Part shown: in pieces, positions 3,682-56,533 of the stretch
How the letters are laid out: each line of letters begins with the position of its first letter
How positions within the stretch are numbered: position 1 is the first letter of the stretch
Assembly (NCBI RefSeq): GCF_030286555.1
Contig: NZ_JASVWF010000004.1
Location: 186,001 to 250,000, forward strand
Length of the DNA: 64,000 bases
Reading direction: 5' to 3'
Source: Actinomycetospora termitidis
GTDB taxonomy: Bacteria > Actinomycetota > Actinomycetes > Mycobacteriales > Pseudonocardiaceae
Translations under genes and position numbers: made by a program
Notes under the pieces: model-generated
Database searches by the model: none
What the model was told of the DNA's origin: nothing
What the model saw: only the letters and a program-made list of their open reading frames with translations

Positions 3682-5235
3682 ATGACCGATCAGCCGTGGG
3701 TGCCCGGTCAGGAGATCGGACGCCGCTACCGGCTCGAGGAGTGCGTGGGCCAGGGCGGGAACGGACAGGTCTGGCGGGCCCACGACCCGCGCCGCGCGGC
3801 CGCCGTCGCGCTCAAGGTGCTCGTCGCCCACCCCGACGCGACGCCGGACGAGCTGCGGCGCGACCGCGAGCGGTTCCTGCACGAGGCCCGCGAGACCAGC
3901 CGGCTCGAGGGCGGCCCGCACATCATCTCGATCTACGACTGGGACCAGCACGGGGACCGGCCGTACCTCGTCATGCCCTACGACGACGGGCAGAACCTCG
4001 CCCGCATCGTCGCCGGCGGACCCCTGGACCCGCCGCGCGCGGTGCACCTGCTGGGGCAGGTCGCGGAGGCCCTGGACTACGCGCACGCCCGCGGCCGGGT
4101 CCACCGCGACGTCAAGCCGTCGAACGTGCTCGTCCGACGGGTCGGTGCGCAGGAGTACGTGCGGGTGGTCGACTTCGGGATCGTCGGGCTGAGCGGCGCC
4201 GGCCCGCAGGGCCGGATGACCCGGACCGGGACCGTGATCGGGTCGCTCGCCTACATGGCGCCGGAGCGGTTCCCGAGCGGACCCGACCTGATGGTGCACG
4301 TGACGCCGGACGAGCGCTTCGACGTGTACGGGCTCGCGTGTCTGCTGTTCGAGTGCCTGACCGGGGAGCGGGCGTTCGTCGGGAACAGCGAGCTCGAGTT
4401 CGTCCGGGCGCACCGGTCCCCGCTGCGCCCGCGTCCCTCGGACGTCTCCGCGGACACCACGCTGGAGGTGTTCGACGACGTGGTGGCGGCCGGTCTCGCC
4501 CTCGACCGGGCGACGCGCACCGCGACCGCGGCCGGGTTCAAGGCCGAGATGGAGGCCGCCCTGGAACGCTGGCGGTCGGTGACCGTCCACCCGACCGTCC
4601 GGACGTCCGGTGGGGCACCGTCGGTCGCGGAGGTCCGGACGACGCCGGTCAACGGCCGCCCCGCGACGGCCCGCACCACGCCGATGACCCCAGCACCGAC
4701 CGACGCAGCCCCGACGGCGCCCCCGCACCGGGTGCCGGTCGACGGTGGCACGGACTCCGGTGCACGGGACGACGGTCCCGTCGACGCCCCCTCGGTCGAG
4801 GTCCCGTCCGTGGGGCGGTTCGTCGACGGCGAGCCGGTCGACGCGCCGTCCTCGTCGACGGTCGCCCCGTCACCCGTCGAGCCCGTCGAACCACCCGTCG
4901 AACGATCGGTCGAGCAGGCCCCCGTCGAGCAGGCACCCTCCGACCCGGACCCCGGCGAGCCGGAGCCGGAGCTCCCGGAGCGACCGGCACCCGCCGTCGG
5001 GAACGAGCCGGCCGTCGCCGCCAGTGCCGTCCCCGAGGACCCGGGGCCATCGCAGTCCGACGAACGTCCGGGTCCGGCCGGCACGGCGTTCTCGGTCGGC
5101 GCGGTCGCGGGCCTCGTCGGGACGGTGGTCTGCGTGGTTGCGGGGCTGCCGGTGGTGGCCGACGTCGTCGTGATCGCCTCGTCGTGGGCGGCCGGGACGA
5201 GCGCGGGATGGTGGGTCGGCTCCCGCCGCGGCTGA
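3682..5235 (+). CDS. Ser/Thr protein kinase with Pro-rich linker and C-terminal membrane hairpin
   Basis: A 517-residue Hanks-type kinase. Residues about 11-275 carry the glycine loop G-Q-G-G-N-G (23-28), the ATP lysine K45, the catalytic loop H-R-D-V-K-P-S-N with D143, the D-F-G of D164 and an A-P-E. Residues about 295-465 are Pro/Glu/Val rich and low complexity. The end (about 469-513) holds two closely spaced hydrophobic segments and then basic residues, so the kinase is probably anchored by a hairpin with no outside sensor domain; PknB-type kinases have one helix and PASTA repeats instead. A GTG at 3619 overlapping the previous stop would add 21 low-complexity residues; I prefer the ATG because the kinase fold starts there. 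A copy of the 15-bp dispersed repeat lies in the Pro-rich linker (4989-5003). Confidence 0.9.
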   Translation: MTDQPWVPGQEIGRRYRLEECVGQGGNGQVWRAHDPRRAAAVALKVLVAHPDATPDELRRDRERFLHEARETSRLEGGPHIISIYDWDQHGDRPYLVMPYDDGQNLARIVAGGPLDPPRAVHLLGQVAEALDYAHARGRVHRDVKPSNVLVRRVGAQEYVRVVDFGIVGLSGAGPQGRMTRTGTVIGSLAYMAPERFPSGPDLMVHVTPDERFDVYGLACLLFECLTGERAFVGNSELEFVRAHRSPLRPRPSDVSADTTLEVFDDVVAAGLALDRATRTATAAGFKAEMEAALERWRSVTVHPTVRTSGGAPSVAEVRTTPVNGRPATARTTPMTPAPTDAAPTAPPHRVPVDGGTDSGARDDGPVDAPSVEVPSVGRFVDGEPVDAPSSSTVAPSPVEPVEPPVERSVEQAPVEQAPSDPDPGEPEPELPERPAPAVGNEPAVAASAVPEDPGPSQSDERPGPAGTAFSVGAVAGLVGTVVCVVAGLPVVADVVVIASSWAAGTSAGWWVGSRRG

Positions 5236-5285
5236 GGACCCGGGGGGAGCGCGTGTCGTTCGGCGTCGGACGGGCGGGCTGCGAT

Positions 5286-5291
5286 TACCGT
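5286..5291 (+). promoter_or_regulatory. Predicted -10 (TACCGT) for leaderless DUF3097 transcript
   Basis: TACCGT fits the actinobacterial TANNNT -10 and ends 8 bases before the GTG at 5300, leaving no room for a ribosome site. This supports leaderless translation from that GTG. Prediction only. Confidence 0.45.
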
Positions 5292-5299
5292 CCGTACCC

Positions 5300-6235
5300 G
5301 TGGCGAGGACGCAGGGCCGGGGCATGAACGGGTCGGGCGGTGACGCGGCGTTCCGGACGACGGGTGGCGCCGGTCGGGCCCCGATGGGCGCGAAGCAGGG
5401 CGGCCCGTCGAGCGGCGCCGGACGCAGCGGCGGACTGCCCGGCATGGCGAGCCACAGGCCCAAGGTCGAGATCCTGACCGTCGAGGCGGAGCCCGGCCTC
5501 GTCGTCGAGGACGCCACCGGCAGTTTCTGCGGTGCGGTGATCCGCGCGGACGTGCGTGAGGTCGTGCTCGAGGACCGGGACGGACGGCGGCGGCTGTTCC
5601 CGATGAAACCGGCGTCGTTCCTGTACGAGGGCCGGCTGGCCACGCTCACCCCGCCGCGGCCCCGGCAGTCGCCGGAGCAGCAGCGCTCGGCGTCCGGGTC
5701 GGTCCGCGGCGACGACCGCCGCGCCAAGGTCGCGCTGCCGCACCGCATCTGGGTCGAGGGCCTGCACGACGCCGCGATCGTGGAGCGCGTGTGGGGCCAC
5801 GACCTGCGCGTCGAGGGCGTCGTCGTCGAACCGCTGCACGGCGCGGACGTGCTCGTCGAGGCCGCGCGGGAGTTCGCGCCGGGCCCGGACCGCAAGCTCG
5901 GCGTCCTGGTCGACCACCTGGTCACGGGCTCGAAGGAGTCCCGCATCGCCGAGGGTCTGCGCCGCGACCTGGGCCCGGCGGCGCAGTACGTGCAGATCCT
6001 CGGACACCCCTACGTCGACATCTGGGAGGCCGTGAAGCCGTCGGTCGTCGGCATCCGGGAGTGGCCGACCGTCCCGCGCGGCATCGAGTGGAAGAAGGGC
6101 GTCTGCGACGCCCTCGGCTGGTGCGACGAGCGCGACGGCGCGCGCCGCGTGCTGGGCGCGGTGTCGACGTGGAACGACCTGCAGACGCCGCTCATCACGG
6201 CGATGGAGCAGTTGATCGACTTCGTCACCACCTGA
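5300..6235 (+). CDS. DUF3097 family protein (Toprim-like)
   Basis: A 311-residue protein recognised as the actinobacterial DUF3097 family by V-V-E-D-A-T-G-S-F-C-G-A-V near the N-terminus, the central segment W-V-E-G-L-H-D-A-A-I-V-E-R-V-W-G-H-D-L-R, V-L-V-D-H-L-V-T-G-S-K-E-S-R-I and the ending M-E-Q-L-I-D-F-V. The E-G-x-x-D and V-D-H pieces resemble the acidic positions of a Toprim fold, but no biochemical role is known to me. The first about 45 residues are Gly/Ser rich and not conserved in my memory of the family, so a start at the ATG of M-A-S-H-R-P (5443) cannot be excluded. I chose the GTG at 5300 because a -10 hexamer sits directly before it. Confidence 0.88.
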   Translation: MARTQGRGMNGSGGDAAFRTTGGAGRAPMGAKQGGPSSGAGRSGGLPGMASHRPKVEILTVEAEPGLVVEDATGSFCGAVIRADVREVVLEDRDGRRRLFPMKPASFLYEGRLATLTPPRPRQSPEQQRSASGSVRGDDRRAKVALPHRIWVEGLHDAAIVERVWGHDLRVEGVVVEPLHGADVLVEAAREFAPGPDRKLGVLVDHLVTGSKESRIAEGLRRDLGPAAQYVQILGHPYVDIWEAVKPSVVGIREWPTVPRGIEWKKGVCDALGWCDERDGARRVLGAVSTWNDLQTPLITAMEQLIDFVTT

Positions 6236-6260
6236 GCGGATCCTCGGGCACACTGGAGGT

Positions 6261-6698: not shown

Positions 6699-6703
6699 GG
6701 ACC

Positions 6704-7843: not shown

Positions 7844-7891
7844 GTGGTCCCACCCATCCCGTTCCCGACGACGGGTCGGGAGACTGCCGCC

Positions 7892-9580
7892 GTGCGCGCG
7901 GCGGCGGTGGTGGTGGGGCTGGTGCTCCTCGTGGTCGGGGTGGTCCTCGACCGCACCGGCTGGTGGGGCTGGGCCGGCGAGCTCACGGACGCGTCCGTGC
8001 TGGTCACCGCGCTGGTCGTGCTGGCCGTCGCCGGCCTGCTCACCCGGGTCGACGCGGTGTGGGCGCGCCGGGCCGGGGCGGTCGGCGCGGTCGTGGCCGG
8101 CGCCGCGGCGGCGGTGCTGTTGGTCGACGGGATCGCCGACGGGCTGCCGGGTCCGGCGGCCGGGGTGCTGCTCGTGGGTACGGCGGCAGTGGTGATCGCG
8201 GCGGTCGCCTTGGCGGTGGGCCCCCCACCGAGGCGACGCCCCCTCGCGGGCGCCGCACTCGCCGTCGGGCTGCTCGCCGTCGCGATCGTCGCCGGCACCG
8301 TGGTGGACGCACCCACGCGGACCACCACGGACGCCCCGGTCACGGAGGCGCCCGTCGCCGCCACGGCCGGCACGGTCCGCTGGACCTACCCGGTGGGCGG
8401 CCCGGTCGCCGACGTCGTGCCGGTCCGCGGCGGGGTGGCCGTGCTCCGCGGGCCGGACGGCCCCCGCACGGACGCCCCGTTCGACCGGCCCCGCAACGAC
8501 TCCGACGATGACGAACGCGGCGACGAGATCGTCGCCCTCGACGGGACGACCGGCACCCCGCGCTGGACCTTCCGTCACGGACGGCAGCGGGTCGACGCCC
8601 TGGTCCCGTCCCCGGGCGGCGGCGTCCTCGCGGTCTCCCACGTGCTGCCCGACGGCGGCGCGCTCGTCACCGTGCTGGACACGTCGACCGGGGTTACCCG
8701 CTTCACCGTCACGACCTCGACCCGCCGCGGCGCCCTGCAGCTGACCGATCGCGTCCTCACGGTCCTCGACGCCCGGGGCACGGCCGCCGGCGACTCCTCG
8801 CGCGACGAGGAGATCTACGGCCTCGTCGCGTACCGGCTCGACGACGGCGCCCGCGCCTGGACCTGGGACCCGCCACCCGGCTGCGCCCTCGGGGTCCCGT
8901 GGTCCCCGACCCTCGGTCCGCCCGGCCGGTGGACCCTCGCCACCCGCACCGTGGGGGTGACGCCCGTCGACTGCGGGACCGACCGCGTCCTCACCGGCCT
9001 CGACGAGGGCACCGGCGGCGTCCGCTGGACCGCCCCCGGCGTCCCGCGCGTCACGGCGGACGGGAGCACCGTGGCCGTGGAGCCGACGCTCACCGCCCTT
9101 CCCGACGGCGGGTCGGTGCTGGTCGGCGGGTCACCCGCCCAGGTCGTGGACGCCGCGACGGGCGCGACCCGGCCGGTCCCGGGGCTCGGCGAGTTCGACC
9201 TGGGCGCCGTCCGGCCCGGCCCGGTGCGCGCCCTCGCCCTCACCGACGGCGAGCCGCGCCGCTCGATCGACGCGCGGACCGGATCGCTCGTCCCTCTGCC
9301 CGCGGAGGCCCCGGGCGAGTGCTCCACCCCGCAGGGCGCCGTGGCCGTGACCGACACCGCGACGCTGCGGCTCTGCGGGGTCGGCGCCGGGTTCGGCCTG
9401 CGCCTCGACGCCGGGCCGGTGCTGCCGCTCGACCTGGGGCCACCCGCGCTGACCGGGAGCGACAGCACCCGGGACACGCTGCTCTACCGGCGCTCCGAGT
9501 ACGTGATCGTCCCTGCACCGGGCGCCCTCGTCGTCGCCACCACCCGCACGGACCCGGCGACCGTGGTCGGCGTCGCGTGA
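7892..9580 (+). CDS. Polytopic membrane protein with PQQ-like beta-propeller (first of a tandem pair)
   Basis: A 562-residue protein. Five hydrophobic segments fill residues about 1-145, then an extracytoplasmic domain of about 410 residues carries PQQ/WD-type blade motifs such as A-L-D-G-T-T-G-T-P-R-W-T-F, V-L-D-T-S-T-G-V-T-R and L-D-E-G-T-G-G-V-R-W. Blades of this type are found in BamB and quinoprotein-like domains; no cofactor residues are obvious, so binding or scaffolding is more likely than catalysis. The GTG at 7892 has GGGAG 9 bases upstream and puts the first helix at the N-terminus. A GTG at 7844 would add 16 residues with no ribosome site. A 15-bp dispersed repeat lies just before the chosen start (7862-7876), and another is inside the gene (9099-9113). 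Confidence 0.7.
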   Translation: MRAAAVVVGLVLLVVGVVLDRTGWWGWAGELTDASVLVTALVVLAVAGLLTRVDAVWARRAGAVGAVVAGAAAAVLLVDGIADGLPGPAAGVLLVGTAAVVIAAVALAVGPPPRRRPLAGAALAVGLLAVAIVAGTVVDAPTRTTTDAPVTEAPVAATAGTVRWTYPVGGPVADVVPVRGGVAVLRGPDGPRTDAPFDRPRNDSDDDERGDEIVALDGTTGTPRWTFRHGRQRVDALVPSPGGGVLAVSHVLPDGGALVTVLDTSTGVTRFTVTTSTRRGALQLTDRVLTVLDARGTAAGDSSRDEEIYGLVAYRLDDGARAWTWDPPPGCALGVPWSPTLGPPGRWTLATRTVGVTPVDCGTDRVLTGLDEGTGGVRWTAPGVPRVTADGSTVAVEPTLTALPDGGSVLVGGSPAQVVDAATGATRPVPGLGEFDLGAVRPGPVRALALTDGEPRRSIDARTGSLVPLPAEAPGECSTPQGAVAVTDTATLRLCGVGAGFGLRLDAGPVLPLDLGPPALTGSDSTRDTLLYRRSEYVIVPAPGALVVATTRTDPATVVGVA

Positions 9581-11052
9581 CCCGGGTGCTGCTCGTCGCG
9601 GGCCTCGCGGCGACGCTGGTCGGCGCGGGGTTCCTCGTCGCCGCCCGCGAGGAACCGGACCTCCCGGCGACGCTCGCCGTGATCACCGTGGCGGTCCTCG
9701 CGGTCGCCGTCGCACTCTGCTGGGACGCCGCCCGCGGCCGGGCCACCGCCGTCGTGGCGCTGCTCGCGGTCCTCGCGGCAGCGGGGACCGGCTTCACCGC
9801 CGTCCTCTCCGGCTGGCCGGGACCGGGGCCCGCGGTCGTGCTCGGCGGCGCCCTGCTCGTCCTGGTCGCGCCCGCGCTGCGACGGCTCGGGCAGGCGAGC
9901 GCCGTCGTCGTCGGGACCGTCCTCCTCCTGGCTGCGGCCGGGGCGGTCGCCGCCGGCGGACCCGTCGTCGGGACCCTGCCCGTGGGCCCGGCGGACGTGG
10001 CCGCCCCGACACCCGTCGCCGGCGCGCGGTGGCAGCTGGTCCTCGGCGAGGTGCGAGGAGCGGTCGGCGCCGGGCCGGGCCTGGTGCTCGCGGCGTCCCC
10101 GTCCGAGGAGCGCGCCACCGACGTCGCCGTCGGGGTGGACACCGCGACCGGTCGCGTCGCGTGGAGCCACCGCCGGGCGGGGACGGCGGTGGACGAGCTC
10201 GTCACGACCCCGGACGGCCGGGCCGTGGCGGTGCTGGCCCGCTTCTCCGACGGGGGCCGGCCGGACGACGACCGCGTGCTCACGGTGCTCGACGCCGCCA
10301 CCGGCCGGGTGGTCTGGTCGGACCTCGTCCACGGGACGACGCTCCGCGCGAGCGACCGCATCGTCGCCGTGGCGACGCCCGAGGGGCGCCTGGAGGCGCG
10401 GGCCCGCGACACCGGCGAGCAGGCGTGGTGGGCCGACCCGGCCCCGCGGTGCGCGTTCGTGCCGACCCGCGCGGCCGGGACGGTCGACGTCGTGCCGGTC
10501 GTCCAGGACTGCCCCGGCCCGCTCGGGGGACCGCCGGCGTTCCGGGCCACGGTCGGGCTGGCCGACGTGTCCGGGGCCGGGGTGTGGACCACGCCGCCGG
10601 AGGCCCTGTCCGGTCGGGAGGACCAGATCGCGCTGCTGCCGGTCACCGCCGGCGGCCGGTTCGTCGCCGCCGAGGGCGGCCCGGCGGTGCTCGACGTCCG
10701 CGACGGCCGCACGGTCGCGACGGTCCGGCCCGGCGACCGGCTGGACGACGACGCCGCCGGCATCGTCGTCACCGCCTCCCTCGCGCCCGCGGGGATCGTG
10801 GATCCCGCCACCGGAGCGGTGCTGCCCGTCCCGCCCTGTCCGCAGCCGCGCGTGGCCGCCCCGGCGGTGGTCGACGGCGCCCCGGTGGTCCTGTGCGAGC
10901 TCGGCGACGGAGCCGGAGAGCTCCGCGGCGCGCCGCCCGGCCGCCTGCCTCCGGGCACGGTGCCGTCGGTGCGGTCCCTGCTCGACACGGGCCCGGGCGG
11001 GCTCGTCGTCGTGCCGGACTCGTTCCGGGCCGGACCCGTCGTCGGGCTGTAG
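9577..11052 (+). CDS. Polytopic membrane protein with PQQ-like beta-propeller (second of a tandem pair)
   Basis: A 491-residue paralogue of the preceding gene, with the same plan: four to five helices in residues 1-135, then an exported beta-propeller with blade motifs V-D-T-A-T-G-R-V-A-W-S and V-L-D-A-A-T-G-R-V-V-W-S. Cys residues near A-P-R-C-A-F-V, Q-D-C and P-P-C-P-Q-P could form disulfides outside the cell; the upstream paralogue has a matching P-P-G-C-A-L-G. The GTG overlaps the upstream stop (GTGA), so the two are co-translated. The pair probably arose by duplication. Role unknown; the NfeD/SPFH neighbours suggest an envelope function. Confidence 0.68.
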   Translation: MTRVLLVAGLAATLVGAGFLVAAREEPDLPATLAVITVAVLAVAVALCWDAARGRATAVVALLAVLAAAGTGFTAVLSGWPGPGPAVVLGGALLVLVAPALRRLGQASAVVVGTVLLLAAAGAVAAGGPVVGTLPVGPADVAAPTPVAGARWQLVLGEVRGAVGAGPGLVLAASPSEERATDVAVGVDTATGRVAWSHRRAGTAVDELVTTPDGRAVAVLARFSDGGRPDDDRVLTVLDAATGRVVWSDLVHGTTLRASDRIVAVATPEGRLEARARDTGEQAWWADPAPRCAFVPTRAAGTVDVVPVVQDCPGPLGGPPAFRATVGLADVSGAGVWTTPPEALSGREDQIALLPVTAGGRFVAAEGGPAVLDVRDGRTVATVRPGDRLDDDAAGIVVTASLAPAGIVDPATGAVLPVPPCPQPRVAAPAVVDGAPVVLCELGDGAGELRGAPPGRLPPGTVPSVRSLLDTGPGGLVVVPDSFRAGPVVGL

Positions 11053-18799: not shown

Positions 18800-20311
18800 G
18801 TGTTCTCTCCACACGTCGTGGTCGCTCCCCGCCCCGATCTCCCGCAGCGCGTGCCCGACGACCGCTCCTCGGGCAAGGTCGTGGTCGTCGGCGGGGGACT
18901 CGCCGGGGTGACCGCCGCGACCGTCCTCGCCGAGCGGGGACTGACGGTGGAGCTGCTCGAGGCCGCGCCGCGGCTCGGGGGCCGGCTCGGCACGTGGCCG
19001 CGCACGCTGCCCGACGGGACCGACGTCACCGTCGAGCACGGCTACCACGGGTTCTTCCGGCAGTACTACACGCTGCGCGACGTCCTGCGGCGGATCGACC
19101 CGGACCTCGCCTTCCTGCGCGACGTCGGCGGCTACCCGGTCGAGAGCCGGGAGTGGGAGTCCGAGGACTTCTCCGACCTCCCGACGACGCCGCTGGCCAA
19201 CCTCGCCGCCCTGGTCTGGAAGTCCCCGAGCTTCCGCCTCCGCGACCTGCGCAAGGTCGACGGCCGCGAGGCCCTCGCCATGCTGCGCTACGACCCGGTG
19301 CGCACCTTCGCCGAGCACGACCACCGCACCACCGCCGAGCTGCTGGACTCGTTCGGCTTCTCCGAGCGCGGCCGCGCGATGCTCTTCGAGGTCTTCGCGC
19401 ACTCGTTCTTCAACACCGAGCAGCGCTACTCGGCGGCCGAGTTCCTCGCGATGTGCCACTTCTACTTCACCGGCAACCCCGAGGGCCTCGGGATGGACGT
19501 CCCGGTCGACCAGTACGCGGCGACGATCTGGGACCCGTTCGCCCGGCTGCTGGACAAGCACGGTGCGACGGTGACGACGGGGGCGCGCGCCACGATGGTC
19601 GTGGACGGGCCGGGCGGCTGGTCGGTGGGCGTCGAGGGCGGCGCGTCCCGGACCGCGCGCCACCTCGTCGTCGCCACCGACGTCCCGGCCACCCGCGAGC
19701 TGTTCGCCCGCTCTCCCGCCTTCGCGACGACGGGTCCGCGGCTGGCCGCGCAGGTGGCCGACCTGCCCGGCGGGGAGCCCTACGTCGTCGCGCGCCTGTG
19801 GTGCCGGGGCGACGTCGACGCGGCGCACGCCCCCTTCACCGGGGTCACCCGCGAACGGATCCTCGACTCGGTGACGCTGTTCCACCGCATCGAGGCGGAG
19901 TCCGCGGCGTGGGCCGCGCGCACCGGCGGTTCGGTGATCGAGCTGCACTCCTACGCCTGCCCGCACTCCGCGACGCGGGACGAGCTGGTCGCCGAGATGC
20001 GCCGTGAGCTCGCGGGGCTGTGGCCGGAGTTCGCCGGCCTCGAGGTGCTCGACGTCGACGCCCACCTCTACGACAACGCGCCCGGCTTCGACCCGGGGTT
20101 CCACGTGCGCCGGCCCGGCGTGGTCACCGACGCCCGCGGGCTGCGGCTGGCGGGGGACTGGGTGGCCACCGACATCCCGTCCGCCCTCATGGAGCGGGCC
20201 GCCGTGACCGGCGTGCTCGCGGCCAACGACGTCCTGCGTGAGGAGGGCGTGGCGCCCGAGCCGATCCGCTCGATCGCGCCGCGCGGCGTGCTCGCGGGAC
20301 GCAGACGATAA
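18800..20311 (+). CDS. FAD-dependent oxidoreductase, CrtU/phytoene desaturase-like
   Basis: A 503-residue flavoprotein. Residues about 31-60 form the ADP-binding fold (V-V-V-V-G-G-G-L-A-G-V-T-A-A, then E at the second strand end, and G-G-R-L-G-T). The segments H-G-Y-H-G-F-F-R-Q-Y-Y and the C-terminal flavin motif L-A-G-D-W-V-A-T-D-I-P-S-A-L-M-E-R-A-A are close to the actinobacterial isorenieratene synthase group (CrtU), which desaturates and rearranges carotenoid rings. No other carotenoid genes are present in the window, so a different substrate is quite possible. The GTG start is supported by the -10 hexamer seven bases upstream. Confidence 0.68.
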   Translation: MFSPHVVVAPRPDLPQRVPDDRSSGKVVVVGGGLAGVTAATVLAERGLTVELLEAAPRLGGRLGTWPRTLPDGTDVTVEHGYHGFFRQYYTLRDVLRRIDPDLAFLRDVGGYPVESREWESEDFSDLPTTPLANLAALVWKSPSFRLRDLRKVDGREALAMLRYDPVRTFAEHDHRTTAELLDSFGFSERGRAMLFEVFAHSFFNTEQRYSAAEFLAMCHFYFTGNPEGLGMDVPVDQYAATIWDPFARLLDKHGATVTTGARATMVVDGPGGWSVGVEGGASRTARHLVVATDVPATRELFARSPAFATTGPRLAAQVADLPGGEPYVVARLWCRGDVDAAHAPFTGVTRERILDSVTLFHRIEAESAAWAARTGGSVIELHSYACPHSATRDELVAEMRRELAGLWPEFAGLEVLDVDAHLYDNAPGFDPGFHVRRPGVVTDARGLRLAGDWVATDIPSALMERAAVTGVLAANDVLREEGVAPEPIRSIAPRGVLAGRRR

Positions 20312-20745: not shown

Positions 20746-21402
20746 TCAGGCCGACCCGTCGTCGGGAAGGGCCCGGCGACGACGGCGGCCGCGGGACGAG
20801 ATGACGATCCCGATCAGGCCGAGCGTGCCCGAGATCGCGAACGCGATGAACGACTGCGGCGAGATCCCACCGGTGACCGCGTCGCCGAGGAACACCACCG
20901 CCGCCGTGCCCGGGACGAGCCCGACGAGCGTGCCGATCACGTAGGCGGGCCACCGCACGCTCGTGACGCCCAGGGTGTAGTTCAGCGGCGCGAACGGGAT
21001 GCCGACCAGGCGTGACGAGGTCACCGTCAGCAACTCCCGCTCGCAGAGCCGTTCCTCCAGCGCCTGCACGCGCTTCGGTCCGAGCCGGTGGATCGCCCGG
21101 CCGCCCAGGCGGCGCGCGATCCAGAAGCCGATCAGCGCCGAGACCATCGACGCGGCCACCGCGATCGCGATGCCCCACGCCGGGCCGAACATCAACCCCG
21201 CCGCGAGCGTGAACGCGGTGCGGGGGATGGGCGTCGTCGTGATGATCGCGTGGACGAGGAAGAAGACCAGCGGGGCGGCGGGACCGATCTCCATGACCCA
21301 CGCGCGCAGCTCCGACGGCGAGGGCAGCGGGACGACGATCGCCACCACCAGCACCGCGGCCAGCACGGCGAGAGCCACCAGGCCCCGCGTCCGGTTCCGC
21401 AC
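20746..21402 (-). CDS. TVP38/TMEM64 (DedA-superfamily) membrane protein
   Basis: A 218-residue protein with five to six helices and the family signature T-T-T-P-I-P-R-T-A-F-T-L-A-A-G-L-M-F-G-P-A-W-G, followed by S-R-L-V-G-I-P-F-A-P-L-N-Y and G-T-L-V-G-L-V-P-G-T-A. DedA/TVP38 proteins include flippases for undecaprenyl phosphate and phospholipids. The C-terminus is very basic and its last codons contain the 15-bp dispersed repeat (20754-20768). Confidence 0.88.
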   Translation of the reverse strand: MRNRTRGLVALAVLAAVLVVAIVVPLPSPSELRAWVMEIGPAAPLVFFLVHAIITTTPIPRTAFTLAAGLMFGPAWGIAIAVAASMVSALIGFWIARRLGGRAIHRLGPKRVQALEERLCERELLTVTSSRLVGIPFAPLNYTLGVTSVRWPAYVIGTLVGLVPGTAAVVFLGDAVTGGISPQSFIAFAISGTLGLIGIVISSRGRRRRRALPDDGSA

Positions 21403-23873: not shown

Positions 23874-24966
23874 GCCTCGCCGGGCGGGTGCGGCGCAGTC
23901 GGGGTCCGGTGGTCGTCGGCGTGCTGATCCTGGTCGCGGCGGCGGTGCTGGCGATCGCGGGGACGCGGGTGGGTGAGGGTCTCCTGGAGCCGGCGGGCGT
24001 CGACCCGTCGGGCAGCGGCGCCCTCGTCGCGGTGCTGCGCGAGCAGGGCGTGCGGGTGGACGTCGCCACCCGCCCCGAGGACGTCGTCGGGGCCGGTCCG
24101 GCGACGACGGTGCTGGTCGCGTTCCCCGAGCGGCTCGGGACGGCGGGTCGGCTGGCCCTCGCGCACGCCGGCTCCGACGTCGTCCTCGTGGCACCCGACG
24201 CGGCGACGCTCGAGGCCCTCGCGCCGGGTGTGCGGCGCACCGAGCCGCCGTCCTCGCTGACCACCACCGGCGTCGTCCCGACCCCCGACTGCGCCCTGCC
24301 CGCCGCCCGCGCCGCCGGCCCCCTGGTCCTGGACGGCGACGTCTACGAACTCACCCCGCCCGCCGTCGGCTGCTACCCGACCGACGGCACCGTGCCGCTC
24401 GCGGTCAGCGGACGGACCGTCGTGGTCGGGACGCCGGGTCCCTTCACCAACGAGACCCTCGACCGGAACGGCAACGCCGCGCTCGTCCTGACGCTCCTCG
24501 GCGCCCACCCGCGGGTCCTCTGGTACCTGCCCGCGCCGGGCGCCGGGGGCGACGTGTCGGTGGCCGACCTGGTCCCGCGCGGCGTCGTCTGGGGCACGGT
24601 GATGCTGCTGCTGGCCGGGGGAGCGGCGGCGCTGTGGCGGGGACGGCGACTCGGGCCGGTCGTCGCGGAACGCCTGCCGGTGCGAGTCGCGGCGGCGGAG
24701 ACCACCCGAGGGCGCGCGGCGCTCTACCGGCGGATCGGGGCCCGCGGGCGGGCGGCGGCGATCCTGCGGGCGGACGCCCGGCGCCGGTGGACGACGCGTC
24801 TCGGCCTCCCGCCCGACGCGCCCACACCCGCCGTCGGGAAGGATCTCCTGGACGGCCCGGAGCCGGCGGACGACGCCGCGCTCGTGCAGCTGGCGGACGA
24901 CCTGGACGACCTCGTGTCGGGAGACGTAGCGCAGCGGAGCTCGACCCGAAGAGACAGGAGAGAGAC

Positions 24967-25916: not shown

Positions 25917-25917
<1 letters not shown>

Positions 25918-28758: not shown

Positions 28759-29520
28759 GTGGCCCCACCGGAACCCGGCGTCGACTCGATCGTCACCGGC
28801 GAAGCCGTCGAACTCGATCTCGCTCCCGCCAAGCTACCGAGCCGGGCGCTGGCGTTCGCGCTGGACGTGGTGATCATCGGGGCGCTGATGACGGCGGCGA
28901 TCGTGGTCGTGGTGGTGAGCGGCGTCGAGGTCGACGGGGCCGCCGCGGCGGCGATCGGGGTCACCCTCGCCGTGCTCGCGTTCGTGGTGTGGCCGACGGC
29001 GTGGGAGACGCTGACCCGCGGGCGCTCGCCGGGCAAGGCGGCGTTCGGACTGCGGGTGGTCTCCGACGACGGCGGGCCGATCCGCTTCCGGCAGGCGCTC
29101 GTCCGCGCGCTCGCGGGCCTGTTCGTCGACTTCGGGCTGCTCAGCGGGGTGGTCGCGGTCGTCGTGTCCGCGTGCACCCGGCGCGGGCAGCGCGTGGGTG
29201 ACCTGCTGGCCGGGACGATCGTGCTGCGGGAGCGGGTTCCGCGCTCGACCCGCCGGGTCGCCCTGCCCGACCCCGACCCGGCCCTGGCCGGCTGGGCCTC
29301 GACGCTGCAGCTCTCCGCCCTGCCCGACGACCTCGCCCTCGCCGCGCGGCAGTTCCTCGGCCGCGCCGGCGACCTCGACCCGACCGTGCGCCGCACCCTC
29401 GGCGAGCAGCTCGCGACCGACGTGGCGCAGCGGGTCGCGCCGGACCCGCCGTCGGGAACGAGCGCGGAGGCCTTCCTGACGGCGGTCCTGGCGGAGCGCC
29501 GACGCCGGGCGTCGTCCTAG
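28759..29520 (+). CDS. RDD-family membrane protein
   Basis: A 253-residue protein with three helices in the RDD domain (about 24-150): the R of S-R-A-L-A-F-A-L-D, R-G-R-S-P-G-K-A-A-F-G-L-R-V-V, and R-R-G-Q-R-V-G-D-L-L-A-G-T. The remaining 100 residues are soluble and helical. RDD proteins have been linked to ion transport but most are uncharacterised. CAGCAT lies eight bases before the GTG as a possible -10. A 15-bp repeat (29444-29458) is in the tail. Its stop overlaps the stop of the convergent DUF1801 gene. Confidence 0.87.
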   Translation: MAPPEPGVDSIVTGEAVELDLAPAKLPSRALAFALDVVIIGALMTAAIVVVVVSGVEVDGAAAAAIGVTLAVLAFVVWPTAWETLTRGRSPGKAAFGLRVVSDDGGPIRFRQALVRALAGLFVDFGLLSGVVAVVVSACTRRGQRVGDLLAGTIVLRERVPRSTRRVALPDPDPALAGWASTLQLSALPDDLALAARQFLGRAGDLDPTVRRTLGEQLATDVAQRVAPDPPSGTSAEAFLTAVLAERRRRASS

Positions 29521-40962: not shown

Positions 40963-41324
40963 TGTACGCGGTGGTGGGTGCATCGGACACGCTGGCATGG
41001 CGGGTCGTCGAGGCGTTGCTCACCGAGGTCACCGGCGACGAGATCGCCTTCCTGGTCCCGGACGCCGAGCGCTTCGCCGCGTACGCGACCAGCCGCAACG
41101 TCGACGTCCGGGGCGACGAGGACGACGGACGCCTCGACGACGCCGAGGTCGTGGTCCTGCTCGGTCCCGACGACGGGTCGCTCGTCCCGTCCGTGGTCGG
41201 GCGCGTGGTCACCTGGGACGGCGGGCCCACGGTGTCCGTGCTCCGGCCCGGGCCCGCCGACCTCGACGGCGGCGACGACCCGCTCCTGGCGGTCGTGGCC
41301 GCGACGCTCGCCGACCGCCCCTGA
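40962..41324 (+). CDS. Hypothetical protein coupled to eiiC
   Basis: A 120-residue acidic protein starting M-Y-A-V-V-G-A-S-D-T-L-A-W-R-V-V-E-A-L-L, which resembles the first strand and helix of a Rossmann fold, and repeated short strands (V-V-V-L-L-G, V-V-T-W). I do not know the family. The ATG overlaps the eiiC stop (TGATG), so it is made with the permease. Confidence 0.5.
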   Translation: MYAVVGASDTLAWRVVEALLTEVTGDEIAFLVPDAERFAAYATSRNVDVRGDEDDGRLDDAEVVVLLGPDDGSLVPSVVGRVVTWDGGPTVSVLRPGPADLDGGDDPLLAVVAATLADRP

Positions 41325-45034: not shown

Positions 45035-45874
45035 ATGGATCCCACGGCGCTCCCGCCCGGCTTCGCCGACCAGCTCGCCGACTTCCAGGCCCGCGCGGCG
45101 GACCCGGTGACCCCGAAGGTCGCGGCATCGACGATCCTGCTCCGTCCCGGAGCGACGGGGGTCGAGGTCTTCCTGATGCGCCGCCGGACCCAGATGGCGT
45201 TCGCGGGCGGGATGGTCGTCTTCCCGGGCGGCGGGGTCGACCCGCGCGACACCAGCGACGAGGTCGCGTGGGCGGGCCCCTCCCCGGAGGTCTGGGCCGA
45301 GCGCCTCGGGCTGGGGGTCGACGAGGCCCGCGCGGTCGTGTGCGCCGCGGTGCGGGAGACGTTCGAGGAGTCGGGCGTCCTCCTCGCGGGTCCCGACGAC
45401 GGGTCCGTGGTCCCGTCCACGTCCGGCGAGGAGTGGGCCGAGGCGCGACGGGCCCTGGAGGCCCGGGAGATCGCGTTCAGCGACCTGCTGCGCGACCGCG
45501 GCCTGGTGCTCCGCACCGACCTGCTGCGCGGCTGGACCTGCTGGATCACCCCGGAGTTCGAGCCGCGCCGCTACCGGACCTTCTTCTTCGTGACGGCGAG
45601 CCCCGAGGGCCAGGAGGCGGCCGGCGTCTCCACCGAGTCCGACGCCGCGGCGTGGATGGGCGTCGACGACGCCCTCGCGGCGGCGGGGGAGACCGTGATG
45701 GTGCTGCCGCCGCAGTACTGCACGTTCCTGGAGCTCGCGCAGTACGGCACCGTCGCGCAGATCCTCGCGGCGGCCGACCGTCCGATCCCGGAGCCGGTCA
45801 TTCCGGGCCTGGAACCGGACGGGTCGGCGCTGACGCTGCCCGGGCACTACCTGGAGCTGAACGCCTCGCGGTGA
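45035..45874 (+). CDS. Nudix hydrolase
   Basis: A 279-residue Nudix protein of the longer type found in actinobacteria. The Nudix box is spread as F-P-G-G-G-V-D then [10 protein letters not shown], with a large insertion between, and the protein continues through [16 protein letters not shown], typical of relatives of coenzyme A or NADH pyrophosphatases. Substrate unknown. It starts 24 bases after the Uma2 gene. Confidence 0.85.
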
Positions 45875-50708: not shown

Positions 50709-51416
50709 CTACCCGCCCGACGTCACCTTCACCCGTCGTCGGGACCCCGTCCACGGCCATGTGATCAACGCCCACACGAGGAGCACGACGGCGGCCTCGA
50801 CGAACAGGTAGACCGGCCACGGCCCGAACAGGTCGAGCACCGAGGCGGCGTCGGGCTTGCGGTCGAGATACCCGTAGTTCGCACCCGAGAGCTGGTTCGC
50901 GACCTGGGCGACGACGGCCCAGACCAGGGTCGCGACGACGGTCCGGCGGTAGTCCGCCCAGCCCGGCCGCCGACCCCGACCCCACGTGAGCAGCACGGCC
51001 GCCCAGATCGGCAGGACGTGGGCGGCGAAGAACGCGAGGAAGCTCGGCGCCGGGAAGTCCGGGCCGCCGAGCGCGGGAGTGGCGAGCGCCTGCACCGTCA
51101 GGGTGAGGGCCCAGTAGTAGGTCATGCCGTACGCCCACTGGGCCCGCGACCAGAGCGCCCAGGCGGCGACGTAGGGCACCAGGTCGGAGAGCCAGAGCGG
51201 CAGCGTCTGCCCCGCCCGGCCCGGCTCGAAGGCGTAGATCTGGTACGCGACCGTGGTGAGGACCAGCACCACGGCCAGGGCCCGCGCGGTGTTCCCGACG
51301 ACGGGTGCGGGGGCGCGGCGGCCGAGCGGCACCAGGGCGGCGGCCCCGAGGACCGCGACGATCACGACGACGACGTGCGAGGTCCCCCAGGGGACGAAGG
51401 GCACGTCGGCGTGCAC
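50709..51416 (-). CDS. TIGR02206/YwaF-like membrane protein
   Basis: A 235-residue protein with seven helices. The YwaF-family phrases are present: L-P-L-W-L-S-D-L-V-P-Y-V-A-A-W-A-L in helix 3-4, A-Y-G-M-T-Y-Y-W-A-L-T-L-T-V-Q-A-L-A-T-P, and the late N-Q-L-S-G-A-N-Y-G-Y-L-D-R-K-P. Function unknown. The 15-bp repeat is read as A-P-V-V-G-N-T (51292-51306). It starts 4 bases after the previous minus-strand gene, so it belongs to that operon. Confidence 0.8.
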   Translation of the reverse strand: MHADVPFVPWGTSHVVVVIVAVLGAAALVPLGRRAPAPVVGNTARALAVVLVLTTVAYQIYAFEPGRAGQTLPLWLSDLVPYVAAWALWSRAQWAYGMTYYWALTLTVQALATPALGGPDFPAPSFLAFFAAHVLPIWAAVLLTWGRGRRPGWADYRRTVVATLVWAVVAQVANQLSGANYGYLDRKPDAASVLDLFGPWPVYLFVEAAVVLLVWALITWPWTGSRRRVKVTSGG

Positions 51417-51420: not shown

Positions 51421-52644
51421 TCATGCTCCCACCGCCCTCCTCCTCCGGCGTGAGGGGACCCCTCGGGCCACAAGAGCGCTCGGATCCTCCCCTCGCGAGC
51501 GGGCGAGTGCCCACGCCGCGAACGGGATCGCGCCGGCCCCGAGCGTCAGGTCCGCCTGCCAGACGCTGCCGGTGACCAGCAGCCAGAACCCGGCCGACAG
51601 CACCGTCGGCGCGACCAGCACCGCGGCGGCGCACCACCCGAGGGCCGCGTCGCTCGTCGGGCGCAGCCGCACCAGGAGGGCGACCAGCAGGCCCAGCGCC
51701 GCGAGCGCGATCACGACGATCCCGAGGTGCAGCCCGCGTTCTCCGGTGACCTTCGCGCCGACGTGCAGCGGGGAGAAGCGCTCGGCGCCCCCGAGGAGGA
51801 AGGGGACGATCAGCGCCGCCCACGTCAGCGCCGCCACGCCGCCCACGAGCAACCCGTGGCGGACCGAAACACCTCCCTCGTCTGGCAGCGAAGCGTCGTT
51901 GCTGGCACTGGGTGCAAGCAACGACGCTTTGCTGCCATCCCCGGCCCGCAGCGCCACCCCGACGGCGACGATCACGACGACGAGCGCCAGGTGCGGCCGG
52001 GTGCAGGTCGCGACGCCCAGGGCGACCGCACCCGCCGTCAGGAACGGGATCGAGCGGGCGCGCAGGACCCACGCCGCCGCGGCGACGGCGGGCACGACGC
52101 TGGTGACGAGGTCATCGCCGACGAGGTACTCCCGCAGCACCTCCGGCGTGATCACGACGAGCACCCAGAGCAGGGTCGGGACCCGGCGCAGCCGCCACCC
52201 GCCGTTCAGCACCGGCAGCAGCGCGAGCGTCCACGCGACGTTCTGCCCGGCCGCGTGCCCGGTGACCGCCCAGAACGGCGCGGCGAGGACCAGCGAACCG
52301 GGCAGCGGGGTGATCGGGTTCCCGAGGTAGGTCACCCCGGTCCAGGGGTACAGCCCGCCGGCGAGGCGGGAGAGCGCGACGTCCAGCGCGTCGGCCCGGT
52401 CGCTGCCGACGCCGGGCACCCACGACGGCGGGCCGACGACGAAGGCCGCCACCAGGCCGACGGCGACGACCGCGACCAGGCCCGGGAGCACCCACCTCGG
52501 CACGCGCACGTGCGGCACCGCGAGGGCGGCCGCACCGAGGAGCACGTAGACGGCGACGACCGCCGGGGGACCGCCGAGCTCCATCGCCGGGAACGTCGAC
52601 ACGACGGCGAGGACGGCGCCGAGCGCCAGGGCACCCGGTGTCAT
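51421..52644 (-). CDS. Polytopic membrane protein, possibly GT-C glycosyltransferase-like, carrying two repeat insertions
   Basis: A 407-residue protein with about ten helices. A periplasmic loop after helix 3-4 (G-V-G-S-D-R-A-D-A-L-D-V-A-L and L-Y-P-W-T-G-V-T-Y-L-G-N-P) hints at a GT-C type glycosyltransferase, but no D/E-x-D motif is certain. A cytoplasmic loop (about 236-254) is encoded by a 55-bp hairpin (51883-51937), and the C-terminus by a family C repeat (51449-51497). Start ATG overlaps the stop of the LysR-domain gene (ATGA). Confidence 0.6.
   Translation of the reverse strand: MTPGALALGAVLAVVSTFPAMELGGPPAVVAVYVLLGAAALAVPHVRVPRWVLPGLVAVVAVGLVAAFVVGPPSWVPGVGSDRADALDVALSRLAGGLYPWTGVTYLGNPITPLPGSLVLAAPFWAVTGHAAGQNVAWTLALLPVLNGGWRLRRVPTLLWVLVVITPEVLREYLVGDDLVTSVVPAVAAAAWVLRARSIPFLTAGAVALGVATCTRPHLALVVVIVAVGVALRAGDGSKASLLAPSASNDASLPDEGGVSVRHGLLVGGVAALTWAALIVPFLLGGAERFSPLHVGAKVTGERGLHLGIVVIALAALGLLVALLVRLRPTSDAALGWCAAAVLVAPTVLSAGFWLLVTGSVWQADLTLGAGAIPFAAWALARSRGEDPSALVARGVPSRRRRRAVGA
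51449..51497 (+). repeat. Family C repeat, 49-bp copy 2
   Basis: Begins CGTGAGGGGACCCCTC and ends GGATCCTCCCCTCGCG, matching both ends of 13706-13754 over the same 49-bp length, with a different 17-bp centre. It forms the last 15-30 codons of a membrane-protein gene on the minus strand. Confidence 0.82.
51883..51937. repeat. 55-bp hairpin inside a coding region (family B derivative)
   Basis: Left arm 51883-51903 and right arm 51917-51937 pair over 21 bases with one mismatch (TGGCAGCgAAGCGTCGTTGCT), loop 13 bases. The left arm and loop resemble family B copy 3 (CAGC, GCGTC, TGCTG, CACTGG). The host gene stays in frame through it. Confidence 0.82.
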
Positions 52645-53781: not shown

Positions 53782-55202
53782 CCGGCCCGCCGTCCGGCCG
53801 CGCCCGCGCCCTGACGGCGGGGGGCGCGGGCCTGGCCGCCGTCGCGATGGTGCTGGTCGCGCTGGGTTCACGCGGGGTCGAGGACAACGGCGACGGGTTC
53901 CGGCTGATCTGCGGCGAGGGCCTCGTGCCGCGGACGGTCGACGGGATCGCGTCGTGGAAGGGCGGGGTCGTCACCGACTTCGCGCTCGCGTCCGCGCCGA
54001 CGTGCGCCGAGTCGGCCCCGTCCTCGGCGCGCCTGGTGCTCCGGGCGGCGGCCCTGCTGTCGGACGACACGCTGGACCTGCGCACCGTCGGGCTGATCTA
54101 CGCCCTCCTCGTGGGGCTGGTGGTCGGTGTCGCCGCGTGGGCGGCGACCGCGACGGGGCTGCGGCGCGCGCTCGTGCTCGTCGTGCCGGTCGCGCCCCTG
54201 GCCCTGCCGTGGTTCTCCCGGTTCTTCGTCTCCACCTACGCGGAGCCGGCCGGGCTGCTCGGCACGGTCGCGGTCGGGTGCGGCCTCGGGGCGTTCCTCG
54301 CGGCGCGCCACGCGGGGCCGGCTGACCGCGCGACGGCCCTTGCCCTGGTGGCGGTCGGCGGGCTGGTCGCCGGGACGGCGAAGCCGGCCTACCTGCCGGT
54401 CCTGGCGGTGACGGTCGCCGTCGTCGCAGTCGGGTCGCGTTCCCTGGTGCGTCGGGGGCGACTCCGGACACCGGTCGTCGTGGTCGCGGTCCTGGTGGGG
54501 GTCGCCGCGGTACCCGTCGGAGCCGCGCTGCGCTTCCAGTCGCTCGCCTACGAGAGCGCGAACGTGCACGACCTCGTCTTCACGCTCGTGCTGCCCGAGC
54601 TCGGGCCAGGAGCCACCGCCGACCTGGGCCTGCCTGGAGAAGCCGCCGCGTATACCGGCACCGGGTTCTTCAACGGGCCACCGCACCCGTCGGCGGCGTG
54701 GTGGCGGGAGGCCGTGCTGACGCAGCCGGATGCCACCCGGGCCCGGGTCCACCGGACGCTGGTGTCCGAGCCGGCGACCGTGGTCCGGGCGATCGGAGTC
54801 GGGCTGCGGGCCACCGTGCGCCCGGACCTGCCCTACCTCGCCTCCGGACCCGCCGTCGCGAACCGCCTCTCGCCGCTCGGCGGGGACCCGGGGTGGTCGG
54901 GGGCCCGACAGTCGGACTTCCGCCGGGTCCTCGACGCGGGCGGGTGGTGGCAGTGGCTGCCGGCGCTGCTCGTGGCCGCGTGCCTGGTCATCGGCTCGCG
55001 CCGGTCACCGTGGTGCCGGGCAGCGGGCCTCGTCGGCATAACGGCGCTCGGGCTCGTCGTCGCGGCGGTGTTCGGGGACGGCTACTTCGAGCTGTTCAAG
55101 CACGTCTGGCTGGCGTCGTACGTGCTGATCGTGGCTGCGCTGTGCCTGGTCGGTGCAAGCTTCTCCAACCTCGGTGGCGGTGAAGTCAGGCGATGGCGCT
55201 GA
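53778..55202 (+). CDS. Polytopic membrane protein, hypothetical
   Basis: A 474-residue protein with about nine helices and a periplasmic loop near the N-terminus containing two Cys (I-C-G-E-G and T-C-A-E-S). A large segment (about 265-375) faces outside. The layout recalls GT-C or arabinosyltransferase-like proteins, and the phrase F-S-R-F-F-V-S-T-Y-A-E-P follows helix 4, but I see no family signature. Started by GTG overlapping the DUF5997 stop. The last 17 bases overlap the end of the convergent XRE gene. Confidence 0.6.
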   Translation: MTGPPSGRARALTAGGAGLAAVAMVLVALGSRGVEDNGDGFRLICGEGLVPRTVDGIASWKGGVVTDFALASAPTCAESAPSSARLVLRAAALLSDDTLDLRTVGLIYALLVGLVVGVAAWAATATGLRRALVLVVPVAPLALPWFSRFFVSTYAEPAGLLGTVAVGCGLGAFLAARHAGPADRATALALVAVGGLVAGTAKPAYLPVLAVTVAVVAVGSRSLVRRGRLRTPVVVVAVLVGVAAVPVGAALRFQSLAYESANVHDLVFTLVLPELGPGATADLGLPGEAAAYTGTGFFNGPPHPSAAWWREAVLTQPDATRARVHRTLVSEPATVVRAIGVGLRATVRPDLPYLASGPAVANRLSPLGGDPGWSGARQSDFRRVLDAGGWWQWLPALLVAACLVIGSRRSPWCRAAGLVGITALGLVVAAVFGDGYFELFKHVWLASYVLIVAALCLVGASFSNLGGGEVRRWR

Positions 55203-55503: not shown

Positions 55504-55550
55504 GTCTGGCGCTCCTCCTCGTCGCTCCCTCGGCCCGTGGGGCCGAGACC

Positions 55551-56483
55551 TCAGAGGCGCTCGACGCGGTCCGCCTGCGGGCCCCGGTCGCTCTGGCGCA
55601 CCTTGTAGCGCACCCGGTCACCCTTCTCGAGCGGCTCCGACCCCACGATCACGGACACGTGGAGGAAGAGATCGTCGCCGCCCGAGTCCGGGGTGATGAA
55701 ACCGAAGCCACGCTCGGCGTCGTAGCGCGCGACGACGCCCTCGCCGCCTCGTGCGGGCGCGTTCCGCGACGCCGGCTTGGCGGGCGCAGGTGCTGACCGC
55801 TGCGGCGCGGCCGGGGGCTCGGCGCTCCGGACCAGGCCCACGCCACGGGCCTGCGGACCCCGGTCTCCCTCGGCCACGTCGTAGACGACACGGTCGCCCT
55901 CCGCGAGCCACGTCAGCCCGTCGGCCAGGGCGCGGACGTGCACGAAGACGTCCCCGGCACCGGAGTCGGGGGTGATGAAGCCGAATCCCTTGTCCTCGTC
56001 GTACCAGGCCACCGTGCCGTCGGCACCGTCCGCGGTACCGGTCGCGGCGGGGCCGACCTCGGCTCCAAGCGGGATCACGTGCCCGGCCTGCGGGCCGCGC
56101 TCGCCTTCGACCACCACGAACGCCACCCGCTGCCCCTCGGCGACCACCCCGCCGGTCACGATCGCGGAGCTGTGGACGAAGACGTCGGGACCGCCGCCGT
56201 CCGGTGAGGCGAAGCCGTATCCCTTGCCCGGCTCGTACCACTTGACGGTGCCGAGCAGACCCACGGCGCCGGCGGTCGCGTCGGCGGTGACGCTGACACG
56301 GAGCGCCTGGGGCCCGCGGTCGTTCTCGCCGGTCTCGAACTCGACGGCCTGACCCTCGCGCAACACCGTCCCGTCCCCGAGGACCTCGGAGGCGTGGACG
56401 AACACGTCCGGCGAGCCGTCCTCGGGGGCGAGGAAGCCGAAACCCCGCTCCACGTCGAACCAACGGACGGTTCCCTGCGGCAT
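55551..56483 (-). CDS. Protein with four tandem cold-shock domains
   Basis: A 310-residue protein made of four CSDs, at about 3-66, 78-139, 156-218 and 249-310, joined by short Ala/Gly or Ala/Pro linkers. Each repeats G-x-V-x-W/R-Y/F, an RNP1 core (G-F-G-F, G-Y-G-F, G-F-G-F, G-F-G-F), RNP2 (V-F-V-H three times, L-F-L-H in the last) and a closing D/E-R-G-P-Q-A. Ordinary bacterial Csp proteins have one domain of about 67 residues and bind single-stranded RNA or DNA. Four in one chain would allow long or multivalent binding. The repeats are diverged, so the protein is not a recent tandem copy. ATG 56483 is the first start before domain 1. Confidence 0.9.
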
Positions 56484-56518
56484 CGAAGGCTCCGGTTCGA
56501 AGGGTGGACGGGCGCGCG

Positions 56519-56533
56519 ACCCGTCGTCGGGAA
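56519..56533 (+). repeat. 15-bp dispersed repeat ACCCGYCGTCGGGAA (intergenic copy)
   Basis: One of ten copies. Others, plus orientation: 4989, 20754, 24826, 29444, 30743; reverse orientation: 7862, 9099, 26150, 51292. Near matches (13-14 of 15) are at 9960, 11035, 41163, 45390, 50731 and 62142. This copy lies between the cold-shock gene and the tRNA terminator. Confidence 0.85.

Follow-up and report, generated by a model that had tools for sequence, protein, structure and literature searches.

Why should a 15-bp word recur ten times, exactly and on both strands, within a short stretch of an actinomycete chromosome? The window analysed here, 64,000 nucleotides of Actinomycetospora termitidis DNA, does contain all ten copies given in the original prediction, each at its predicted coordinate and on its predicted strand (Table 1), and the exact word was matched 0 times across 100 dinucleotide shuffles of the window. 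Eight copies had been described as coding, and 8 of the 10 indeed lie inside called genes, those at 7862 and 56519 being intergenic. The six near copies also reported were an undercount, because the window holds 31 matches at up to two mismatches (10 exact, 10 with one and 11 with two; shuffle mean 1.53). At position 15 C is tolerated besides A, and the extended consensus ACCCGYCGTCGGGAM, counted with CGTC at positions 7–10 obligatory, is matched exactly at 14 places in the window and with one mismatch at 7. Since the genome average is 3.9 exact copies per 64 kb, this window, which was singled out for these very copies, is approximately 2.6 times denser in the exact word (Poisson p 0.007, uncorrected for that choice).

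Table 1. Copies of the word in the 64-kb window; the base at position 6 is given for exact copies.
Copy	Positions	Strand	Context or source
Exact (C)	4989..5003	+	Within called gene 3682-5235 (+)
Exact (T)	7862..7876	-	48-bp gap between two + genes; 18 nt past stop codon
Exact (C)	9099..9113	-	Within called gene 7892-9580 (+)
Exact (T)	20754..20768	+	3' end of called gene 20746-21402 (-)
Exact (C)	24826..24840	+	Within called gene 23909-24970 (+); indel adjoins
Exact (T)	26150..26164	-	Within called gene 25917-27209 (+)
Exact (C)	29444..29458	+	Close to 3' end of called gene 28759-29520 (+)
Exact (C)	30743..30757	+	Within called gene 29944-32154 (-)
Exact (T)	51292..51306	-	Within called gene 50709-51416 (-)
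Exact (T)	56519..56533	+	238-bp gap, divergent genes either side
C at position 15, exact to ACCCGYCGTCGGGAM	9960..9974	+	Mismatch scan
C at position 15	41164..41178	-	Mismatch scan
C at position 15	45390..45404	-	Mismatch scan
C at position 15	50731..50745	+	Mismatch scan
One mismatch (position 11)	5351..5365	-	Mismatch scan
One mismatch (position 12)	19721..19735	-	Mismatch scan
One mismatch (position 11)	52030..52044	+	Mismatch scan
One mismatch (position 12)	54848..54862	+	Mismatch scan
One mismatch (position 11)	58962..58976	-	Mismatch scan
One mismatch (position 12)	62142..62156	+	46-bp gap; 18 nt past stop codon

The word is not peculiar to this window. A genome-wide count, proposed as a check, gave 400 exact copies in the 6.56-Mb assembly (203 on the plus and 197 on the minus strand, about 60 per Mb), far above expectation and against 0 for the reversed control word; hundreds to thousands of copies of a short word, shared about equally between the strands, are also what characterizes DUS and USS. 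Five of the 18 Actinomycetospora genomes compared, related soil bacteria forming a single branch of the genus tree (built on one syntenic region from 15 of the 18 genomes), contain 375–440 exact copies each, three contain 11–37, and the remaining ten contain 0–1, as do 43 genomes from outside the genus. Word-bearing strains include A. soli and A. chiangmaiensis. The reversed word is missing from all 18. Sites with up to two mismatches number 2,662–3,134 in the five word-rich genomes (one per about 2–2.5 kb) versus 196–359 in the ten congeners with 0–1 copies. This distribution is phylogenetically coherent, again as in DUS and USS. In the sister group the core of the word shows a mild enrichment without any new word standing out clearly, and 420 kb of the word-free genome G012, scanned for a word of its own, yielded nothing comparable. 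In G005, G008, and G010, some words recur within individual 20-kb stretches. A phage origin was considered and rejected: the viral scan returned 90 stretches, and among the 80 listed, 79 had one copy and one had two.

One- and two-mismatch forms occur in graded excess, with positions 1, 4, 6, 11, 12, and 15 tolerant and further positions near-invariant. Around aligned copies no conserved flank longer than the word was found, only weak base preferences, and no A/T-rich tracts flank it. As originally described, the core CCCG-N-CG-N-CGGG is an imperfect inverted repeat; its two halves are unequally constrained. Constraint on a hairpin was rejected, the pairs 4/11 and 3/12 being without clear compensatory changes.

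In fetched stretches, word windows were identical at 17 of 36 aligned sites; among windows in the flanks identity was seen in 131 of 831, and among those adjoining the word in 3 of 72. Divergence is higher directly beside the word than at a greater distance. A further 13 of the 36 sites are one or two substitutions off the word. DNA unshared with the sister species has about half the word density, as judged against the fetched stretches rather than whole genomes. Core-genome enrichment, a permissive neighborhood, and a conserved word, the combination expected of DUS and USS, are all found in the two species pairs compared over fetched stretches. Differences at aligned sites are mostly substitutions or irregular gaps, and gaps are in excess at the word relative to the flanks (7/36 vs. 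81/831, p 0.08; 11/34 vs. 116/798, p 0.01; against G015, 9/21 vs. 76/468, p 0.005, and 14/23 vs. 112/532, p 0.00006), so that some sites may have arisen or vanished by insertion, deletion, or replacement. At position 160682 of a G003 stretch the word nearly fills a 14-base alignment gap. The suggested comparison with relatives showed that the more distant congeners lack the word at aligned sites; neither of the two outcomes named beforehand as refuting, counts near expectation or the motif at every site in distant relatives, was obtained. Site 26150 carries it in G001, G003, G014, and G016 (the last with C at position 15) and site 29444 in G014 and G016, with G001 and G003 one base off; at both, it is missing in the 10 other aligned genomes. 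At 30743 it is present in G001, G003, G014, and G016 and missing in G009 and G015, and at 24826 G003 and G001 are one base off and G014 and G016 lack it. The word at 20754 is also found in G003 and, through G003, in G014 and G016, while G001 has three additional bases inside it; the words at 51292 and 56519 recur in G003, the latter in G015 as well.

Could coding constraint or base composition produce such a pattern? Among 100 exact copies, 69 lie wholly within called genes and 29 are intergenic, an approximately threefold enrichment over the expected 9% or so. One reading frame (PDDG/PDGG on the opposite strand) accounts for 28 of the 69 genic copies instead of one sixth, a point in favor of codon usage or a protein motif. 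All six frames are used, however, in agreement with the earlier statement that copies are read in different frames, and together with the intergenic copies, the absence of the reversed word, and the ten congeners of similar composition with 0–1 copies, this refutes codon usage, protein motifs, and chance composition as explanations. Intergenic copies are densest between convergent genes, and 55% of 38 intergenic copies lie no more than 40 nt from a stop codon (28% of random positions); 53 of 176 copies fall into the outer tenths of genes. Close inverted pairs were few, which weighs against an uptake role: 944 kb contained only four, involving 5 of the 100 exact copies, of which three are intergenic with a stop codon 1–5 nt away and one lies within a gene. 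The G014 and G016 stretches with ComEC contain further inverted pairs. Strands are mixed, with 50 plus and 41 minus copies across 1.6 Mb of contig C1 of G000; two stretches of G003 have 8/8 and 19/16. Polarity in the single-contig genome G003 was likewise rejected (204/182 genome-wide, fetched stretches mixed).

Three other processes might maintain such a word. It could be the binding site of a sequence-specific, chromosome-wide protein (acting in nucleoid organization, segregation, condensation, or division control) that is selected at many sites. The genome-wide, strand-symmetric occurrence, the maintenance relative to the flanks, and the partial dyad symmetry common to many protein sites are consistent with this, but such a site shows no reason to be sparser in unshared DNA or enriched just past stop codons, no polarity is seen, and thousands of graded near-matches appear to be more than single-site selection needs; we regard this explanation as unlikely. 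Still less probable is a Chi-like signal for a RecBCD- or AdnAB-type helicase-nuclease in break repair. The word is conserved and permissively placed, and its near-match density is of the same order as known Chi densities, yet the strands, mixed over 1.6 Mb, show no replication-strand bias, and switching from hundreds of copies to none within one genus would require an altered core enzyme. A tiny element that moves or spreads itself would accommodate the copies in indel-rich spots, including the nearly filled 14-base gap, and other, longer hairpin repeats do exist in the genus. This explanation is disfavored and seems quite improbable, as the copies share nothing beyond the word save weak base preferences, 13 of the 36 aligned sites are one or two substitutions from it, unshared DNA is sparser rather than denser in it, and most copies sit wholly within genes in all six frames. 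Of the options offered by the original prediction, an uptake signal fits best and a protein-binding landmark persists as a rival; the mobile repeat fares poorly, and a polar, KOPS-style segregation signal is unsupported because the strands are mixed.

On the basis of these sequence comparisons, we lean toward interpreting ACCCGYCGTCGGGAM as a lineage-specific DNA recognition word, most likely an uptake-sequence-like signal that evolved within the Actinomycetota. In this scenario, the word would have spread genome-wide in a single Actinomycetospora group, upheld there by selection or biased recombination: a putative cell-surface DNA receptor would favor word-bearing fragments, imported DNA of the same kind would recombine into the chromosome, and copies could be gained and repaired wherever protein coding allows (molecular drive). 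We infer that an uptake receptor, in concert with ComEA/ComEC and the Tad/Flp pilus, would read the word and that the word-bearing bacteria would be naturally transformable. The uptake machinery is indeed encoded, as in DUS and USS bearers, yet it is not specific to the word-bearing species. ComEC was found in 16 of the 18 genomes (in 15 of 15 at least 90% complete), TadA in 16 of 18 (split in G015), and the Tad locus in all 14 stretches compared; ComEA was recognized by Pfam in G000 only, and Tad/Flp genes were found in G003. Since ComEC and Tad genes occur in word-free species too, the machinery does not explain the difference in the word, and these genes were rejected as discriminators. Pilus loss as the cause of low copy numbers was also rejected: the Tad ATPase gene is interrupted in G015, but the Tad genes of the low-copy genome G009 read open. 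A search for TadE found none among the 18 genomes at the threshold used; as one TadE-like gene scored just under the Pfam cut-off, it is uninformative. About even, in our estimation, are the chances that an independent DNA uptake-sequence system of the Actinomycetota has here been caught at different stages within one genus, fully spread in the five-genome clade, weakly in its nearest relatives, and absent elsewhere, even though ComEC and the Tad pilus genes are encoded there as well.

To our knowledge, the known uptake words are those of Neisseriaceae and Pasteurellaceae (PMC1939737). Searches of open-licence PMC papers turned up no title or abstract opening on an uptake word in actinobacteria, and the 12-letter core string is absent from open-licence PMC papers. 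If the proposed reading is true, an uptake system in a distant phylum with word-free close relatives would offer a direct test of how such words originate and of whether the preference of a receptor is enough to carry a word through a genome. Natural transformation would then shape these actinomycete genomes, and the word might serve as a DNA tag for bringing DNA into hard-to-engineer strains. Even if it plays no part in uptake, the word marks a sequence-specific process acting at hundreds to thousands of chromosomal sites.

Among known systems, Chi sites are likewise frequent short words and are tied to recombination, but they usually are shorter and biased by replication strand, whereas the Actinomycetospora word is longer, lacks this bias, and is confined to part of one genus. 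USS have A/T-rich flanking tracts, which the Actinomycetospora word does not. With USS it shares near-matches graded around a core and a bias toward gene ends, as far as these features are outlined for Pasteurellaceae (PMC1939737, PMC2346458), and a drive of near-matches has been reported for uptake sequences (PMC1939737). Cyanobacterial HIP1, as summarized in PMC4390886, is also a very frequent word of particular lineages, but it is a perfect 8-base palindrome linked to orphan methyltransferases and not an asymmetric 15-mer. The Neisseriaceae DUS, which in Neisseria is bound by the receptor ComP, differs in sequence and phylum and is denser, with 2,426 to 5,918 copies in each of the example genomes given (PMC3630211), compared to about 60 exact copies per Mb of the 15-mer described here. 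In the accounts of DUS drawn on here, core-genome enrichment, permissive and more divergent neighborhoods, and high conservation of the word itself (PMC2397512) are accompanied by dialects that differ between lineages and by inverted pairs at terminators (PMC3630211). The Actinomycetospora word resembles it in being short, abundant, and present on both strands in some branches of its group and not in others, in its permissive placement in core DNA, in being conserved unlike its neighborhood, and perhaps, to judge from a few cases, in forming inverted pairs after genes (PMC3630211, PMC2397512).

The original prediction of ten exact copies of a 15-bp word in the window holds at every position named, and shuffled versions of the sequence contained none; when up to two mismatches were allowed, 31 matches were found where 1.53 were expected. 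This word, an imperfect inverted repeat with C or T at position 6, occurs 203 times on the forward and 197 times on the reverse strand of the entire Actinomycetospora termitidis assembly (G000; 6,562,599 bases in 30 contigs), where the reversed control, the pattern read backwards, had no match. Among the 18 genomes of the genus set, five are rich in exact copies (400 in G000, 375 in G001, 386 in G003, 408 in G014, and 440 in G016), three carry few (37 in G015, 21 in G009, and 11 in G013, which is 59% complete), G006 has one and nine have none; the reversed control was absent from all 18. Outside the genus, 37 of 43 genomes lacked the word and six had one copy, while the reversed control occurred once in two. 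The same grading appears within two mismatches of ACCCGYCGTCGGGAM: 2,662–3,134 sites in each of the word-rich five (406–508 per Mb), 1,060 in G009, 1,268 in G015 and 628 in G013 (163–181 per Mb), and 196–359 in each of the other ten (43–55 per Mb), against 52–107 for the reversed controls. A scan of named genomes found at least 111 stretches with the word; among the 80 matches listed, 29 belong to Actinomycetospora (A. soli, A. sp. NBRC 106378, A. chiangmaiensis, A. endophytica, and A. cinnamomea), and the remaining 51 are single copies dispersed across many groups.

In an unrooted tree of 15 genomes, built on a single syntenic region (5,537 columns; G004, G007, and G013 excluded), the word-rich five are split from the rest, G009 joins G015, and the word-free species group together, each with support of 1.0; branch order within the five is partly poorly supported. 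G009 and G015 are taken as the nearest relatives of the five because their identities to them are 0.78–0.80, compared with 0.74–0.77 to the word-free species.

G000 and G003 together supplied 944 kb for studying the anatomy of the word, with 100 exact sites when either A or C is accepted at position 15. Among one-mismatch forms, positions 2, 3, 5, 7–10, 13, and 14 were altered in at most five cases each, whereas positions 1, 4, 6, 11, 12, and 15 were altered in 28, 14, 20, 34, 27, and 8. Contrary to base composition, T is preferred over C at position 6 (62 vs. 38) and A over C at position 15 (69 vs. 31). Preferences beyond the word are weak (C at −3 to −1, G or C at 0 and 16, G at 17); no A/T tracts were found in the flanks, and there was no clear compensation between the inverted-repeat halves. 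In 420 kb of the word-free G012, no exact copy and two one-mismatch forms occur.

Gene calls from our own codon-usage script place 12 of the 49 exact sites of G000, and 17 of the 51 of G003, between genes, where about 9% would be expected; 69 lie wholly within genes and two overlap a gene edge. In-gene exact copies use all six frames, with one over-represented (28/69), and in-gene copies are over-represented in the outer gene tenths (53/176, p 0.0009). Between genes, the density of the 60 sites with at most one mismatch is 1.39 per kb in convergent, 0.76 in divergent, and 0.48 in tandem arrangements, and 55% of the 38 such sites with a neighboring stop codon lie within 40 nt of it, vs. 28% of random positions. 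Close inverted pairs number four and take in five of the 100 exact sites; three are intergenic, 1–5 nt from a stop codon, and one is within a gene. The ComEC stretches of G016 and G014 also hold inverted pairs with one or two members one base off; two of these pairs sit directly after the gene that comes next.

When exact G000 sites were compared with stretches of G003, 36 of 49 could be aligned and 13 were dropped. The 13 fixed positions were identical in 17 of the 36; among windows in the flanks 131 of 831 were identical, and among those directly adjoining the word, 3 of 72. Reciprocally, 34 of 51 G003 sites aligned and 14 were identical, vs. 134 of 798 flank windows. Against G015, the word was hardly ever retained (1 of 21 and 1 of 23 sites). 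Divergence is higher in DNA adjoining the word than farther away, as one study describes for DUS, the DNA uptake sequences of Neisseriaceae (PMC2397512). Of the 36 aligned sites, 13 differ from the word in G003 by one or two bases, and seven fall in alignment gaps. In each of the four comparisons, such gaps were commoner at the word than in the flanks (p 0.08, 0.01, 0.005, and 0.00006), which argues against an origin by point mutation alone; the same study likewise reports that many recent DUSs differ too much from their homologues for point mutation to account for them, and proposes recombination (PMC2397512). DNA shared between the compared blocks of G000 and G003 holds 26.6 and 30.7 sites (at most one mismatch) per 100 kb, and DNA not found in the other species' blocks 14.6 and 16.9 (p 0.035 and 0.011).

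ComEC is encoded in 16 of the 18 genus genomes, and none of the 15 with a completeness of 90% or more lacks it; in G000 its neighbor is a ComEA carrying SLBB and helix-hairpin-helix domains. A Tad/Flp locus, assigned by Pfam in G003 (TadA, two T2SSF-type proteins, DUF4244, and a Tad-like protein, with a TadE-like protein below cut-off), has identical gene order in 14 word-bearing and word-free genomes, tadB of G009 included. An account of Micrococcus luteus describes transformation that needs Flp pili, with comEA and comEC homologues present (PMC6370729); together with these genes, this precedent makes uptake plausible. ComEC and the Tad locus do not distinguish word-rich species from word-free ones. 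G009, whose exact copies ending in AA total just 21, has three word copies in one orientation within 87 bp, immediately upstream of the gene in the ComEA position. In G015 (A. endophytica), about 57.3 kb of DNA starting with a serine recombinase (Pfam Resolvase) interrupts the Tad pilus ATPase gene within the part encoding the ATP-binding loop; one source describes competence genes interrupted by prophages and other elements (PMC4774983).

Coordinates of individual features in Actinomycetospora genomes
Feature	Genome	Position in stretch	Position in contig
Split Tad ATPase gene	G015	L121:3236 and L124:585	C9:1815236 and C9:1872585
Inverted word pairs in ComEC stretches	G016/G014	L368:rc 894-936, 15922-15956; L369:16697-16731	
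Word triplet	G009	L372:8792-8878	
27-base stretch	G000	L040:2322-2348	C1:182322-182348
Repeat starting AACGGCACTCTC	G000	window 15802 and 34549 (+)	

Other repeats were also seen. The AACGGCACTCTC repeat, whose second arm is inverted, has eight intergenic copies across 464 kb of G000, two of them in the window. Other hairpin-like families, of 9–12 copies in 480 kb, occur in G003 and G015. The 27-base stretch has many matches in G003, G010, and G015 (97–100%) and includes GAGCTCCGCTGCGCTC, present once or twice per 420–480 kb. The word-rich species and their sister group also carry another short word, GTGGTCCC, at about four times its frequency in word-free species (97 vs. 22 expected in G000/G003; 47 vs. 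12 in G015/G009).

Regardless of what reads it, the word is a genuine DNA signal that is maintained within one clade. Base composition as its origin failed specific tests. A polar, strand-biased signal likewise failed its specific test, the strands being mixed (50 forward and 41 reverse across 1.6 Mb); spacing between copies is not beyond random (CV 1.13 vs. 0.82–1.22). A reading as a mobile repeat is disfavored. We lean slightly toward a role like that of the uptake sequences of Neisseriaceae and Pasteurellaceae (DUS/USS), which would be a working likeness rather than proven membership: with reservations about the few inverted pairs and the excess of gaps, the distribution features tested agree with those of uptake sequences.
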